Shown: piece by piece, positions 1-5,957 of the stretch
How positions within the stretch are numbered: position 1 is the stretch's first letter
Layout of the letters: every line of letters begins with the position of its first letter
Virus record (IMG/VR): IMGVR_UViG_3300012920_000158
Span: 1-30,863 of that record
DNA from: a virus
DNA length: 30,863 nt
Direction: 5' to 3' (one strand)
Notes under the pieces: generated by a model
What the model saw: only the letters and a program-made list of their open reading frames with translations
Databases searched by the model: none
Told to the model about the DNA's origin: nothing
Translations under genes and position numbers: made by a program

Positions 1-548
1 TCTCTAAAAGACTTGATCATGCCCTTTCTGCCGTCTTCCGAGGCCAATGTTTCTTTTAGTTCAACCATGCTTCCCAATAGTTTGTTCGCCGAAGGAGCTA
101 AGACTCCCATCGTAACAGCAAGGTTTTTAAACTTTGGAGCCATAGCATCATATGCGGCCACACCAGCTGGTCCGAGGTCTTCATATTCTTGTTTCAGTTT
201 TTTTAGCTTATTTATTTGTTCAATTGTGAGGCCTGTTTCCTCTTCAATTTGCCTTCTGCGCTCTGCGCTCATACCATCGACATCTTCGTATGCTTCTTCC
301 AAAATATCTTTGTATTTATCAAGCAAAGCAATAGCATTTTGCTCTAGAGCACCTCTTTCTTTGAGAGCATCATTTTGAGCCATAATAAGCTTAAGCTTCT
401 CGGCATCTATATTTAGACTTCTTTGTTTGGTCTCAAGTCTAGCATCAAATTGCTCTTGTGTCTCGCCATCTTGTTTGGTAATTTTATTCTCGCCCTCTTT
501 CTTCCCCAAAGCATCGAAAAGAAGTTGTCTTAGTTGTTCTGGTGTCAC
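1..548 (-). CDS. Probable tail tape measure protein, N-terminal part (cut by window edge)
   Basis: The frame opens at GTG (548-546), directly after the tandem TAA TAA that ends the upstream gene, with a GAGG Shine-Dalgarno about 9 nt upstream. It stays open to base 1, giving about 182 residues with no stop, so the C-terminus lies outside the window. The visible part is hydrophilic and helical, rich in Glu, Lys, Gln and Ala, with heptad-like stretches (around ERRRQIEEETGLTIEQINKL), followed by a more hydrophobic segment with LAVTMGVLAPSANKLLGSM near residue 145. The tape measure call is mainly positional: it follows sheath, two tubes and the gp26/gp51-like assembly pair, which is where contractile-tail phages place this gene. 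A tape measure spans the tail tube lumen and sets tail length. The full gene should be long; if it ends shortly beyond the edge the call is wrong. Confidence 0.55.
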   Translation of the reverse strand, partial: MTPEQLRQLLFDALGKKEGENKITKQDGETQEQFDARLETKQRSLNIDAEKLKLIMAQNDALKERGALEQNAIALLDKYKDILEEAYEDVDGMSAERRRQIEEETGLTIEQINKLKKLKQEYEDLGPAGVAAYDAMAPKFKNLAVTMGVLAPSANKLLGSMVELKETLASEDGRKGMIKSFR

Positions 549-955: not shown

Positions 956-1186
956 CTACTTTCTTGCTTTGGATGCTTTATCCATTTCTTTCTTTTCTTC
1001 TTCGAACTGCTTTCTCATTCTCTCGCAGAACCAGTTTCTAAGTCCTATTGGAAGGTTATACATCTCGGTGAATGACCAACCTCCAAAGTGCTTCATAATG
1101 AAGAATTGTTCATAAAGAGCTTCAGAATATTTATCGGTCAGGCCAAAAAAAGTCCGTATTAAACGGAACCTCCATTTCTTGCGCAT
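956..1186 (-). CDS. gp51-like tail assembly chaperone / hub assembly protein (likely made by frameshift)
   Basis: The frame ends at 956 and overlaps the 3' end of the gp26-like gene by about 55 nt in another frame. The recognisable part is the last 62 residues, with a GWSFTEMYNLPIGLRNWF core and a charged Lys/Glu tail. This resembles the short gp51-type proteins of T4-like phages, which work with gp26 around tape measure and hub assembly. The ATG at 1186 gives 76 residues but has no convincing Shine-Dalgarno, and its first residues (MRKKWRFRLIRT) look like out-of-frame translation of the overlap. TTG at 1207 is another possible start. More likely, ribosomes enter from the gp26-like frame at a run of seven T (1151-1145), giving a fusion of about 341 residues. 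Function is inferred from family resemblance and position. Confidence 0.65.
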   Translation of the reverse strand: MRKKWRFRLIRTFFGLTDKYSEALYEQFFIMKHFGGWSFTEMYNLPIGLRNWFCERMRKQFEEEKKEMDKASKARK

Positions 1187-1982
1187 GTCCGCAAGATCCG
1201 CACTCAAAAAGTTGTTTTATGGTCACATCGGGTGCAGCTAGCTTGTAGCAAGCCTTGAGGTGTCTGGAGTCTAAAGTAGGCATATTATCGACATATTTTG
1301 ATATGATTGAAGAGTCTCTGTGACCTTCAATCGCAACGATGGTTCTCTTAAACTGATCGGTCAAACCACTCTCGAGCATCTTACGTTTCTTCTTATCAAT
1401 CGCCAACTTGGATAGGGTCTGCTCGTCTATTCCGTTTAATAGCTTAAACTCAACGTTGAACTTTGAGAAAGGCATTTTGCAAGAAAAGTTTCCATTATCG
1501 AGCTTTATTAGAGATAATTCTTCACTGGTCTGTGATTCTTCTATCTTCTGTTGTCTTAGGTCAAAGTCAACTCTTGTTCTCGCCCCACAGGAAGGGCAAC
1601 CAACCTGAGTTTGATACAGATTTCCATATCCTGATATTCTGGCGGCGATAATCATAGCGTTTCTATCTCCAACCAATAAATCTCCAACCTTGATATTTTT
1701 ATCGATGATCAAAGACTGAAGCATACGCTCAATCGCAATCCCTTTCTTCAGGAGTGTTTGAGAGGAAAGTATGTCCTCTTCTTTGGCTGTCATGTAGCGT
1801 ATCTCCACAACTTCTTTACCGCATAAGGGGTGTCCTTCTGGGTAGTTTCCTTTTGATGGAAGTTCAACAAAGTCTGTTGGTGCTACAAAGCTTAAGGGAT
1901 CAAAGGCCTTTTCTACGGCTTGAGTTGGTGCTTCCGCTGGTTCTGGAGTATGAACTCCAAGTCTATCTTTATTTCTGCTCAT
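1131..1982 (-). CDS. gp26-like baseplate / tail assembly protein with zinc-ribbon cysteines
   Basis: 283 residues. After a Pro/Ala-rich N-terminus, residues 38-70 carry the typical opening of the T4 baseplate gp26 family (FVELPSKGNYPEG, then MTAKEEDIL). GYGNLYQ at 118-124 is followed by a CPSC pair at 129-132, with a second CGSC pair at 261-264; together the four cysteines could bind one zinc. Proteins of this family assist baseplate hub and tail assembly rather than form the bulk of the tail. ATG at 1982 is well placed behind AGAGG (6 nt). The gene lies directly after the second tube gene, and its 3' end overlaps the gp51-like frame at a T7 run, the arrangement expected for paired tail assembly chaperones upstream of a tape measure. 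At the T7 a +1 or -2 slip avoids the TAA at 1133-1131. Confidence 0.8.
   Translation of the reverse strand: MSRNKDRLGVHTPEPAEAPTQAVEKAFDPLSFVAPTDFVELPSKGNYPEGHPLCGKEVVEIRYMTAKEEDILSSQTLLKKGIAIERMLQSLIIDKNIKVGDLLVGDRNAMIIAARISGYGNLYQTQVGCPSCGARTRVDFDLRQQKIEESQTSEELSLIKLDNGNFSCKMPFSKFNVEFKLLNGIDEQTLSKLAIDKKKRKMLESGLTDQFKRTIVAIEGHRDSSIISKYVDNMPTLDSRHLKACYKLAAPDVTIKQLFECGSCGHAQEMEVPFNTDFFWPDR
1145..1151 (-). promoter_or_regulatory. Candidate programmed frameshift site (T7 slippery run)
   Basis: In the gp26-like frame the minus strand reads GAC TTT TTT TGG CCT GAC CGA TAA. A +1 shift (or a -2 shift) on the T7 run gives TTT GGC CTG ACC GAT AAA, which continues into the conserved gp51-like segment. 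A -1 shift would hit TGA within three codons. Only shifts into the gp51-like frame are productive. Confidence 0.5.
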
Positions 1983-1991
1983 TTATACCTC

Positions 1992-2489
1992 TTAGTCTAA
2001 TGTTGCTGAGTCATAGGCAACGGTGAGTGTTATCTCGAGTAGTTCGTCTGATGAATAGTCGAGGTCTCCATATTTAATTGCTTTAATGAAAGGATTGATA
2101 AGAGTCCAAGTTTCCAATCTGTCCCCATCGGCATTATATTTTATTATTCTTATGTTCGTCAAAGGCCTAACAGCAGGCCCCTGTGTTGTTTTCGCAAGCC
2201 CTGTGGCTACATCGGTTGATTCCAAGAAGGCATAACCAAATTTAAGCGATAAGTCGGAAATCAGGTTTCTCCCTGTATCTCCAACATCTACCATTGTTAT
2301 ATCAATATCGTTCCAAGTCGCAATACCGGGATACTTTATCTTGTGATTTATTAACTGGTGTTCCGAAACAGATATATCTGGTGAGGGCTGAGTTACGGAT
2401 TTTGCCCACCACATTGTATCATTGTTCATTTGAATATGAAAACGGAACTTTCTCTGTGGTTCCGCTGTATTTTCTGTCCAGAAAGCCAT
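1992..2489 (-). CDS. Tail tube protein, second copy (gp19-like)
   Basis: 165 residues, close to T4 gp19 (163). It opens MAFWTENTAEPQRKFRFHIQ, has NDIDITMVDVGDTGRNL in the middle and ends with the tube-like WTLINPFIKAIKYGDLDYSSDEL followed by LTVAYDSATLD. This is a clear paralogue of the gene just upstream (2499-3071), sharing the N-terminal MAFWTENT and the C-terminal KYGDLDYSSDEL. It lacks the roughly 25-residue insert and C-terminal extension of that copy. Tail tube subunits stack as hexamers inside the sheath and form the DNA conduit. Having two suggests either mixed rings or a specialised role for one, for example at the tube end or baseplate junction. ATG at 2489 has AAGGAGG upstream; the gap to the previous gene is 9 nt. 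Confidence 0.88.
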   Translation of the reverse strand: MAFWTENTAEPQRKFRFHIQMNNDTMWWAKSVTQPSPDISVSEHQLINHKIKYPGIATWNDIDITMVDVGDTGRNLISDLSLKFGYAFLESTDVATGLAKTTQGPAVRPLTNIRIIKYNADGDRLETWTLINPFIKAIKYGDLDYSSDELLEITLTVAYDSATLD

Positions 2490-2498
2490 TTAGCCTCC

Positions 2499-3071
2499 TT
2501 ATCTTGCTTGGAAATATGTATCCTGAAGTCCTGCTGGTGCTTCAGGGTTGGATATAACACACTCCGCCCAGTCATAAGCGAAAGTTAATTCAACTGTTCT
2601 CAACTCATCAGAAGAGTAATCAAGATCGCCGTATTTAGCAGACTTAAGGAATGGGTTTTTAAGAGTCCAAGTTTCTAGAACTTTACCATCAGCATTCAAT
2701 ACCATAATCTTTAATGTCTCAAGAGGCCCGGTTGCCGCTTTTCTTTTAGACATGGTCTCTGGGTTTGGTCCTGTGCCTGATTGCTCGTCTTTGATGTAGT
2801 ATCCAGAATCTTGCATTAACTTGTTTGTTCTCGCCACAGCATCTACCGATATCGGGTCAACCAAACTAAGGGAAACATCGTTCCAAGTTACACGACCGGG
2901 GAACTTATATTTGTTATCCAAGAAGTTGTGTTCAACCTCTCCAACATCAAACGAAGGTGTTGTGACCGTCTTTGCCCACCAGAATATCTCTGCGCCGCTT
3001 GATGGTCCTATTTGTACTTGAAATCTAAAATTTCTTTTAGGCTCTACAGTGTTCTCTGTCCAAAATGCCAT
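2499..3071 (-). CDS. Tail tube protein, first copy (gp19-like)
   Basis: 190 residues, longer than T4 gp19. It begins MAFWTENTVEPKRNFRFQVQ, continues with FWWAKTVTTPSFDVGEVEHNFLDN, a segment typical of tube proteins, then VTWNDVSLSLVDP, and ends WTLKNPFLKSAKYGDLDYSSDEL plus LTFAYDWAEC. An insert near residues 85-112 (SGTGPNPETMSKRKAATG) and a short C-terminal tail distinguish it from the second copy. It forms or contributes to the inner tail tube. ATG at 3071 is placed behind AGGAG. It follows the sheath gene across a short spacer carrying an ACTATTTA motif, so tubes could also be transcribed separately from the sheath. It is probably the main tube subunit because it sits in the gp19 position directly after gp18. 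Confidence 0.9.
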   Translation of the reverse strand: MAFWTENTVEPKRNFRFQVQIGPSSGAEIFWWAKTVTTPSFDVGEVEHNFLDNKYKFPGRVTWNDVSLSLVDPISVDAVARTNKLMQDSGYYIKDEQSGTGPNPETMSKRKAATGPLETLKIMVLNADGKVLETWTLKNPFLKSAKYGDLDYSSDELRTVELTFAYDWAECVISNPEAPAGLQDTYFQAR

Positions 3072-3104: not shown

Positions 3105-5957
3105 TTAGAACTCAATTCCGGAGCGTGTGATGTTAAAGTCAATCGCGATAAACTCAATAGCATAGGCCGGTTTAATAAAAACCTTAGCATACATGATGTT
3201 GCGATCAACGTAGTCGGGTGTTGTTGTTGATTCGTCTAGAACCAACTTGTACTCTGCTATTCCAAAGCGTGACTTGGCATCCGAGAGTATTGGTTGTGCT
3301 CCTGATATGAAGCGGTTCCAAGTTGCTTGAACATTGTTGTCGAACAGGATAGTGCGAGCAACACCGCCAATGCGCTTCTTAAGATAGATCATAAGACGAC
3401 GAACATTGATGCGGTCAAGAGCAGATGGTGTCTGTTGAAGAGTCTTCTGTCCGAATACAACCGGTCCTTCTGCTGGGAAGTTGGCGATTGGGTTGATATT
3501 AACTTGATAAAGATCATCACGGTCTGCCTTATTGAGGTTCTCAACAGGGCGCTGCACGCGTGGTCCTTTGTTCCCACCAAGTCTACGAATACCACCACGG
3601 TTAAAACCAGCAGGGGCAAACCAAGGGGCACCGGAAGCTTTATCGCTCTGTGCAAGAACACCCATACCAGCAACAGAAGCAGGAACACGAAGTCCAGCAT
3701 CATCACCAGCAAGAACTATTGGTGGGTAATAAGCCGCAGCATAGCTTGTGTTAAAGTCGCGATCATTCGCATCAGAAATAGCATCAGCCGCAGATCCGTT
3801 AGCATAAGCACCATAGTTTTCATGCTTGGCTTTGAATTCAGAATCCATATCAATAACAGCAAGAGCATCACCACGCTTTTCAGTATTGTCTACCAGTTCA
3901 TTTCTCAAAGTGCTATTTGTAAGACCGGGCATACAGATAACATCGTATTGAACGAGGTCAGCATCAGCAGCAAGATCAAGTGCTTTCTGTACAGAATAGT
4001 GAGCGTAATGAGAAGAAGGTTCGGAACTATCTGTAATAGCCTCTCCACTTTTGTTAGAGAATGGGTCGGTTAAGGTGATATCAACACCATCAGTTCCACC
4101 GAAGAAAGGTGTTTGGAACTGCTTGACCTTCTTGGTTGCAATAAGATATGCTGAACCAGAGTCATAAGTCAAAGAGTTTGTTCCCATTGAACCGGCTTCG
4201 TAATAGAAGCGCTCATTTGCTTCGTCCCAGACAATCTCATCCAAAGAGAATACGAAACTTGACTCAACATTATTAGAGTTAACATCGTGAATATTAAGCC
4301 CATCTCCGAGAGGACGAAGAAGTTCAGCGTAGTCTCCTTGTCTCCAGATACGAGTTTTATTGATTTCATCGGACTTAAAATGTCTTACTCCAAATACATC
4401 ACTATATTTGTAGTTATTTTCGTTCTTTGAATTTTCTGTGGTAAGGCGAAGTTCAGGGAACTCGATAGAAGCAGTTACATCTAAGCGGAAGTCTGCCCAC
4501 TCACCGGCTTTTGAATGACCATTGAATACACTTCCCACAGGAGAAGTAATAGCATATGCTGTTGAACCACCCTCTTCAAGATTAGCGGAACCAGAAGTAA
4601 TTTTAAAGCTTTTAAGTTTAGCCGGTCCATAGAAGCCAAATGGAATAGCATAAGCATCATCAATGCCTGCTTCCCAATCATCAGCCATCTCAACATAGAC
4701 ATAGTCTGACTTATTTTCATAGTTTCCTTTTACGATGTATTTTTCACGGGCATCACTCCATTCTTGATAAGTGTCGCCAATCTTCTTTCCAACAAAATCC
4801 TCTGAGGCTTCGTTGAGAGTACAGTTGGAAAACTGCTCTAGGGCATTACCATTAGCATCTATAATAGAAACGGTAAAGGTAGAATCTGGCTTGGTAGCGG
4901 TTCCCAATAGAAGGTCGGAAATGCGAACAAAATATCGCTTTTGGAACTGCTCTCCATCATGTAAAGATACAAGGCGGAAAAGCTTCTTCATATCGGCAGC
5001 ATCCCAAGAACTTAAGGCACTTGTTGGATTTGGATCTCGAGAGATGAACCAACCAGTTTTAGCAGGGGCTGCTTCACGTTCGTGATTAGCAAGGTTGTTC
5101 CCGGTATATAAAGAACCAGAAGTAAGAGGAAGGAGGATAGCAAATTGCTTACCAGCAGAACCTGAGCCTGCTGTTTTAAGTTTTTCATAAGTTTCTGTTT
5201 CAAAGGTTTCGCCTAAGAAATATTTTTCGGTATTTACTTGGTTTACACCATTCAGTAATTGTGGATTTGTATTTAATGCATTTCTAATAAAGCCATCTTT
5301 ATCGTCTGAGTCGAGGTGGAATGGAACCTTGGTGGTATTAACACCATCATCAATTTGCAAAACAAAAGAACCCATTTTGGAACCAGTGCTATCATCAGAT
5401 TCCATCAAGACGCCAACAGAAGCTGTTGTGTCGGAAGTTCCAGCGATAGTCCCAGTAAGAGATACGGCTGCGGCTTTGGTGTAAAGCACGGCAGCAAGAG
5501 TTCCATCAAGTTGTCCAGCAGCACCAGAAGGCATAACGAAAAGACCGTAAGCCGCAGAAGTTCCGGCTGCTGTAGGGGTTAAAGTCTCACCTGTATTCCA
5601 ACCAGCAGAAGTATAAATTCCGTTTTGATTTGGAGAATCTTCTCCAGCAAGACGAATGTAAGTGACTGGTGATGTCTCTGAAGCGAGCCATGCTTGGGCT
5701 GCGTAGAGTCCGTAAGTTGGAAGTTTTGTATTGCCAGCCCTCCAGATATCATCTTTGATATTCATTCCGCTTTGAGGTCGCCCAAAGACTGTGTAAAGAC
5801 TGTCTAGGTCCTTGATACGAATCGGCTTCATTGAAGGTCCTAAGCGGGCCTGTCCGATAATTAAGACACCATCATCAGCAGTCTCCGCAGGGACTTGGCT
5901 TTGATCAACTTCACGAAGAAGGATGTCGGGTGATATAAAATCAAATTTGCTAGGCAT
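3105..5957 (-). CDS. Tail sheath protein (gp18-like), unusually large
   Basis: 950 residues against 659 for T4 gp18. The contractile sheath polymerises around the tube and shortens to drive injection. The conserved parts are at the two ends. The N-terminus has FISPDILLREVDQSQVP and GVLIIGQARLGPSMKPIRI. The last 250 residues carry AAAYYPPIVLAGDDAGLRVPAS, the PVENLNKADRDDLYQVNINPIA region, GQKTLQQTPSALDRINVRRL, YLKKRIGGVARTILFDNN and a closing IEFIAIDFNITRSGIEF. The long middle (about residues 110-640) is variable, rich in Gly, Ser, Thr and Asp, and probably forms surface domains on the outside of the tail. ATG at 5957 has AAGGAG upstream. The gene lies between a gp15-like gene and the tube genes, as in gene 18-19 order. 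Confidence 0.95.
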   Translation of the reverse strand: MPSKFDFISPDILLREVDQSQVPAETADDGVLIIGQARLGPSMKPIRIKDLDSLYTVFGRPQSGMNIKDDIWRAGNTKLPTYGLYAAQAWLASETSPVTYIRLAGEDSPNQNGIYTSAGWNTGETLTPTAAGTSAAYGLFVMPSGAAGQLDGTLAAVLYTKAAAVSLTGTIAGTSDTTASVGVLMESDDSTGSKMGSFVLQIDDGVNTTKVPFHLDSDDKDGFIRNALNTNPQLLNGVNQVNTEKYFLGETFETETYEKLKTAGSGSAGKQFAILLPLTSGSLYTGNNLANHEREAAPAKTGWFISRDPNPTSALSSWDAADMKKLFRLVSLHDGEQFQKRYFVRISDLLLGTATKPDSTFTVSIIDANGNALEQFSNCTLNEASEDFVGKKIGDTYQEWSDAREKYIVKGNYENKSDYVYVEMADDWEAGIDDAYAIPFGFYGPAKLKSFKITSGSANLEEGGSTAYAITSPVGSVFNGHSKAGEWADFRLDVTASIEFPELRLTTENSKNENNYKYSDVFGVRHFKSDEINKTRIWRQGDYAELLRPLGDGLNIHDVNSNNVESSFVFSLDEIVWDEANERFYYEAGSMGTNSLTYDSGSAYLIATKKVKQFQTPFFGGTDGVDITLTDPFSNKSGEAITDSSEPSSHYAHYSVQKALDLAADADLVQYDVICMPGLTNSTLRNELVDNTEKRGDALAVIDMDSEFKAKHENYGAYANGSAADAISDANDRDFNTSYAAAYYPPIVLAGDDAGLRVPASVAGMGVLAQSDKASGAPWFAPAGFNRGGIRRLGGNKGPRVQRPVENLNKADRDDLYQVNINPIANFPAEGPVVFGQKTLQQTPSALDRINVRRLMIYLKKRIGGVARTILFDNNVQATWNRFISGAQPILSDAKSRFGIAEYKLVLDESTTTPDYVDRNIMYAKVFIKPAYAIEFIAIDFNITRSGIEF

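Follow-up and report, generated by a model that had tools for sequence, protein, structure and literature searches.

A predicted +1 frameshift at a conserved T run would yield the short and long tail assembly chaperones of a T4-related phage lineage

Introduction

Does a single gene at this viral locus encode two tail assembly chaperones, a short and a long form, and if so, by which route is the long form made? The window, i.e., the whole stretch of DNA analysed, comprises 30,863 nucleotides from a marine virus of bacteria (IMG/VR record IMGVR_UViG_3300012920_000158). Close to one end it carries a gene resembling T4 gp26, which terminates shortly after a run of seven T and overlaps a second open frame. 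An earlier note had proposed that ribosomes slip at the T run by +1 or -2 and thereby join the gp26-like frame to a gp51-like one. Judging from the nucleotide sequence of the window and its relatives, we consider it very probable that one gene encodes both chaperones through a +1 shift at the conserved T run.

The chaperone locus and its reading frames

The features of the locus are compiled in Table 1. The gp26-like ORF ends with GAC TTT TTT TGG CCT GAC CGA TAA, and its product with FNTDFFWPDR*. From the slip point onward, the +1 frame reads GGC CTG ACC GAT AAA and continues for 62 residues to a TAG at 958-956; in the window this frame is open already well upstream of the slip site. Skipping one base yields a fusion of 341 residues that reads NTDFF-GLTDK across the junction. 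On re-reading the sequence, the position of the seven T, the coordinates and the junction peptide given earlier all proved correct, as did the statement that a -1 slip meets a stop at once (TTG GCC, then TGA). A -1 shift was rejected as a candidate, since this frame closes immediately in the window and in most relatives.

Table 1. Features of the chaperone locus in window coordinates
Feature	Position	Strand	Basis
Zero-frame ORF, short tail assembly chaperone (T4 gp26-like, PF12322), 283 aa	1131..1982	-	PF12322 and phrog_150 matches; AlphaFold2
Slip site TTT TTT TGG (seven T at 1151-1145)	1143..1151	-	Sequence; site type conserved in 91 distinct contexts
+1-frame extension GLTDKYSEAL...KARK*, 62 aa	956..1144	-	Translation; profile comparison; AlphaFold2
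Second-frame ORF	1207-956	-	ORF list; TTG at 1207, ATG at 1186
Rival second-frame starts ATG (1186) and TTG (1207)	1184..1207	-	Not conserved among relatives
Predicted long chaperone via +1 shift, 341 aa	956..1982	-	TGGC read as one step; homologues align across junction
Zero-frame stop TAA, four codons past slip site	1131..1133	-	Sequence
-1-frame stop TGA, closing the -1 option	1138..1140	-	Sequence; -1 frame reads TTG GCC TGA
Small ORF between chaperone pair and presumed tape measure, 118 aa	552..908	-	ORF list
Presumed tape measure protein, start only (cut by window end)	3..548	-	Position; tape measure PHROG hits for the large ORF in relatives
Two tail tube (gp19-like) genes	2489-1992 and 3071-2499	-	PF06841, phrog_4542

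Upstream of the chaperone gene, the minus strand carries two gp19-like tail tube genes in tandem (1992-3071) and a tail sheath gene (3105-5957). The 950-residue sheath is about twice as long as the phrog_23 profile and therefore probably contains a large insertion. The pair was said to lie directly upstream of the tape measure gene; it does lie upstream, but does not adjoin it, because the 118-residue ORF intervenes. This ORF gave no match above noise in Pfam or PHROG, and the tape measure fragment itself matched no tape measure PHROG. Among relatives, the next large ORF is a tape measure gene, with matches to tape measure families in four of the six relatives tested (phrog_167, E 1e-12; phrog_25241, 3e-13). 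A small ORF of 90-111 residues often precedes the tape measure in these relatives, at the position of the 118-residue ORF of the window; L199, L200 and L202 are examples. Comparison of the sequences supports a frameshift fusion that would supply two chaperones from a gene ahead of the tape measure.

Conservation of the slip site among relatives

An IMG/VR scan yielded 80 loci, to which three further scans with distant members and isolates from a phage collection added more. The extension lies in the +1 frame, with the same site type and frame relation, in 91 distinct contexts, which share ancestry and are not independent of each other; the predicted conservation of T run and frame relation is borne out. 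The commonest site is TTTTTT TGGCCT (65 contexts), followed by TTTCTT TGGCCT and TTCTTT TGGCCT (nine each) and eight other forms. The Firmicutes-type relatives retrieved with SP-15-type queries (L136-L167; gut and rumen-type contigs plus a contig from an Erysipelotrichaceae MAG) mostly carry TTTTTTCGT or TTCTTTCGT and are likewise +1. Six of these loci (L156, L159-L161, L165-L166) have AAT CCC A (AATCCCA) at the position of the site, which would allow CCC to CCA re-pairing in the +1 direction.

Homologues align straight through the junction. Sufficient sequence was available for 74 loci, and their +1 frame runs for 54-98 codons (median 71) before a stop; shuffled sequence reached 54 open codons in 1.6% of draws per locus. 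The combination of frames, T run and open +1 frame is confirmed to exceed chance. This conservation bears on two technical readings of the locus. Homopolymers are error-prone, and a sequencing or assembly error might have turned a single reading frame into two. Against this, genomes of isolates (Mel-JY01, immuto, SP-15, LIS04, GXN1) and numerous separate assemblies show this frame relation too, together with a short conserved zero-frame tail before the stop. Since the relatives share the frame relation, such an error is excluded in practice. Slippage of RNA polymerase, which would generate some mRNA with an altered number of U, is likewise thinkable on a run of seven T, which suffices in length. 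Yet relatives with TTTCTTTGG or TTCTTTCGT, whose T runs never exceed three, keep the frame relation, and we judge this explanation to be highly improbable.

Evidence that the second frame is translated via a shift

Among 16 close pairs, differences in the second frame fall on codon positions 1, 2 and 3 in a ratio of 88/45/255, counted beyond most of the overlap with the zero frame. This concentration on the third position argues that the second frame is translated. It might be translated as a separate small gene, starting from the ATG or TTG that are both present in the window, or through ribosomes that re-initiate once they have passed the gp26 stop. The annotations of S-PM2 and KVP40 follow the separate-gene reading, and L188 and L193 look so. 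Against such a reading, 33 of the 91 contexts offer the second frame no ATG, GTG or TTG anywhere from the preceding +1-frame stop up to codon 12 of the extension (57 lack an ATG), the starts that do exist show no conservation, conservation of the second frame sets in at the slip site, and the homologous domain is fused to a gp26-type domain in T4, RB49, RB43 and CP220. The pattern that the earlier note had named as contrary to its proposal, a second frame with a clear start and no T run, is seen in L188 and L193 only. Taken together, a separate gene in the window is very unlikely.

The point of entry can be narrowed down. Many relatives have a +1-frame stop just 3 or 5 codons upstream of the slip point. 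In L178-L186 (R*ASFGL), a TAG blocks the +1 frame three codons ahead of the slip point, and entry must fall within those codons.

Searches for a stimulator of the shift gave little. RNA downstream of the site folds about as well as expected by chance (mean z -0.57), with no clear signal of a hairpin stimulator, and a four-base Shine-Dalgarno-like word 6-20 bases upstream occurs in just 9 of the 91 contexts, which leaves no clear stimulator. A further argument against a shift is that TGG is not an obviously slow codon.

Direction of the shift

Entry into the second frame by +1 or by -2 would give almost the same protein, the -2 product having one extra residue (FFF-GLTDK). On TTT TTT T, the tRNA in the P site could move back by two bases and pair again, as would be allowed at 71 of the 91 sites including that of the window, and -2 shifting is used by phage Mu (PMC5009743). 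Re-pairing in the +1 direction is possible at 89 of the 91 sites. Twenty sites of the same arrangement, which occur on several branches of the tree (TTTCTTTGG, TTCTTTTGG, TTCTTTCGT, TTTCTATTC), make -2 re-pairing in the P site impossible; TTT CTT TGG, TTC TTT TGG, TTC TTT CGT and TTT CTA TTC each forbid it. A Mu-type -2 shift across the family was rejected on these grounds, and for the fusion discussed here -2 is very improbable. The shift is therefore most likely +1, and of the two directions originally proposed the fusion itself stands, with +1 favoured. The second slip codon is TTT in 81 contexts, CTT in nine, CTA in one and TTC in none; elsewhere in the gene, TTC accounts for 183 of 810 Phe codons.

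Identity of the short form and of the extension

The short product matches PF12322 (T4_baseplate) with E=2e-14 and 54.2 bits, vs a curated cut-off of 24.5, as well as phrog_150 (baseplate hub; 2e-18). PF12322 covers the first ~200 residues of T4 gp26 and likewise of T4 gp51, the latter being ~48 residues longer; gp51 is thus a gp26-type protein plus an extension. A 70-sequence profile of the extension in the window clade matches one built from the second-frame domain in 11 phages of cyanophage type (probability 93%, E 4e-8), which in turn matches the gp51-type C-termini of T4, RB49, RB43 and CP220 (96.8%, E 4e-10); column-shuffled control profiles gave at most 0.3%. The direct comparison of the window-clade domain with the four T4-type C-termini is weak (3%), and homology to these C-termini rests on the cyanophage step. 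By these comparisons the second frame, described earlier as gp51-like, corresponds to the C-terminal ~45 residues of T4 gp51 and not to the entire protein, and the predicted long form carries a gp51-type C-terminal domain as recognized via the cyanophage domain.

The extension also lies near DUF6760 (PF20546), with matches at E up to 0.1 in 23 of 47 relatives (best 3e-5). Membership was rejected, as the extension stays under the curated cut-off (19.5 bits vs 27). A genome scan with the SP-15-type alignment for contractile injection systems bearing DUF6760 returned one contig and a plasmid search none; one genome searched for DUF6760 gave no match, and the controls were silent too.

AlphaFold2 was run on the short form and the extension separately. 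The model of the short form (mean pLDDT 89) has matches in a viral library that include SP-15 and other baseplate hub annotations. Among solved structures, the HK97 tail assembly chaperone 2ob9 comes closest (Z 5.3, rmsd 8.2 over 90 residues; Foldseek E 0.69), a likeness that is suggestive only. The extension is modelled as three helices (mean pLDDT 91.7), and a structure search found no solved structure resembling it.

Other arrangements among relatives

In a search of whole records, two PF12322 genes were found solely in T4, RB49, RB43 and CP220, and one in each other record with a match above the cut-off; G002 has a second, broken match under the cut-off. Mel-JY01 and immuto were found by sequence similarity and gave no hit above the cut-off in the PF12322 search. 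In CP220 (L121, L127) the two genes lie ~9 kb apart, one of them with the extension fused in frame. The one-copy T4-type phages P-SSM2, Syn9, S-PM2, HTVC008M, KVP40, pf16, phiM12 and phiM9 have a T-run site at the 3' end of the gene and the extension in the -1 frame, an arrangement that is less clear in Vi01. Two annotated small genes are such -1-frame extensions of the preceding gp26 gene, namely S-PM2 151190-151363 (L134) and KVP40 186612-186779 (L135), which carry the labels gp51 or hub assembly catalyst. The KVP40 annotation had already seen the likeness to the gp51 C-terminus and S-PM2 annotates a small gp51; neither invokes a shift.

In the tree, the T4-type group, with a -1 shift or two genes, stands apart from the rest (99*), and the -1 phages Atu_ph07 and Paride are placed at the edge of the +1 group. 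Nested within the latter, L049, L060 and L174-L176 (100*) have the extension in the -1 frame behind AAT TTC TTC TGG. These loci have lost the T run and offer an A AAU UUC site, at which a -1 shift would occur. In L188 and L193, the slip site has decayed and the extension follows its own ATG right after the gp26 stop, as a detached second gene. The fusion is accordingly not universal.

Proposed mechanism

The phage would be contractile-tailed and T4-related, with one gene for both tail assembly chaperones. Most ribosomes would stop at the TAA and release the short 283-residue form, the equivalent of gp26. In a minority, with tRNA-Phe on the second TTT in the P site and TGG in the A site, the ribosome would slip one base forward. 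In the P site, the tRNA would move from UUU to UUU in the window; in relatives the move would be from CUU to UUU or from UUU to UUC. GGC would then be read instead of TGG, giving the 341-residue form with a helical domain of 62 residues, the gp51 equivalent. If the pair works as lambda G/GT does, the part common to both forms would bind the tape measure protein and the extra domain would recruit the tail tube protein. The sequences show the frames, the conserved site, selection for coding in the second frame, the absence of starts in a third of relatives, homology of both parts to T4 gp26/gp51 and the gene order; the occurrence of the shift, its efficiency and the binding roles are inferred.

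Novelty and meaning

The T4 pair and the poly-T -1 sites are known, and the +1 direction, its breadth and the nested reversal to -1 are seemingly new. The literature consulted, in which Vladimirov 2022 was represented through the papers citing it, yielded no description of a +1 shift, of its breadth or of a reversal in this chaperone family. A large and old T4-type lineage probably uses +1 shifting without a stop codon or clear stimulator, with UUU or CUU in the P site before UGG (CGN in the Firmicutes-type relatives), and has switched between +1, -1 and two genes while keeping the pairing.

Among relatives, one gene has found four solutions, slipping forward by one base, slipping back by one, duplication into two paralogues, and a second gene standing apart, which indicates that the conserved need is for a short and a long form rather than for a particular route of making them. 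The family provides many natural examples of predicted bacterial +1 sites, a kind known from few cases so far. It also carries its own controls: members with the extension in the -1 frame lack the T run (TTC TTC), and members that start the extension from a separate ATG have a decayed slip site. Annotations that treat such second-frame domains as small genes in their own right, as with the cyanophage gp51 and KVP40, can be looked at afresh.

Comparison with known systems

The E. coli prfB gene shifts +1 at CUU UGA, aided by the stop codon and a nearby Shine-Dalgarno stimulator. The direction is the same here, and CTT TGG in relatives would re-pair like CUU UGA, but a Trp codon takes the place of the stop and there is no clear stimulator. 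The archaeal myovirus HSTV-2 shares the +1 direction with the window site (PMC5009743). Lambda G/GT and the Vandenendeviridae, with their -1 site GTTTTT (PMC12846349), also make a short and a long chaperone by frameshifting, from a gene ahead of the tape measure; theirs is a -1 shift, however, and the likeness drawn here is one of arrangement.

Closer relatives are the single-copy T4-type phages (TTTTTTC), in which the same gene has its slip site at the same place and a homologous extension, but shifts -1 at T TTT TTC rather than +1 at TTT TTT TGG. A later paper (PMC12846349) attributes the finding of poly-T -1 sites among T4-like phages to Vladimirov 2022. T4 itself was regarded in a 2016 review as an exception to frameshifted tail chaperones (PMC5009743). 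The earlier note was right that a fused form links T4 gp26 and gp51 to the frameshift systems, although the T4 pair of one short and one long chaperone gene had, according to a citing paper, already been reported by Vladimirov, Gautam and Davidson in 2022 (PMC10885494). T4 and the window have in common PF12322 in both products, a long form with an extra C-terminal domain and a short and long pair; they differ in that T4 employs two genes and the window one gene with a predicted +1 shift.
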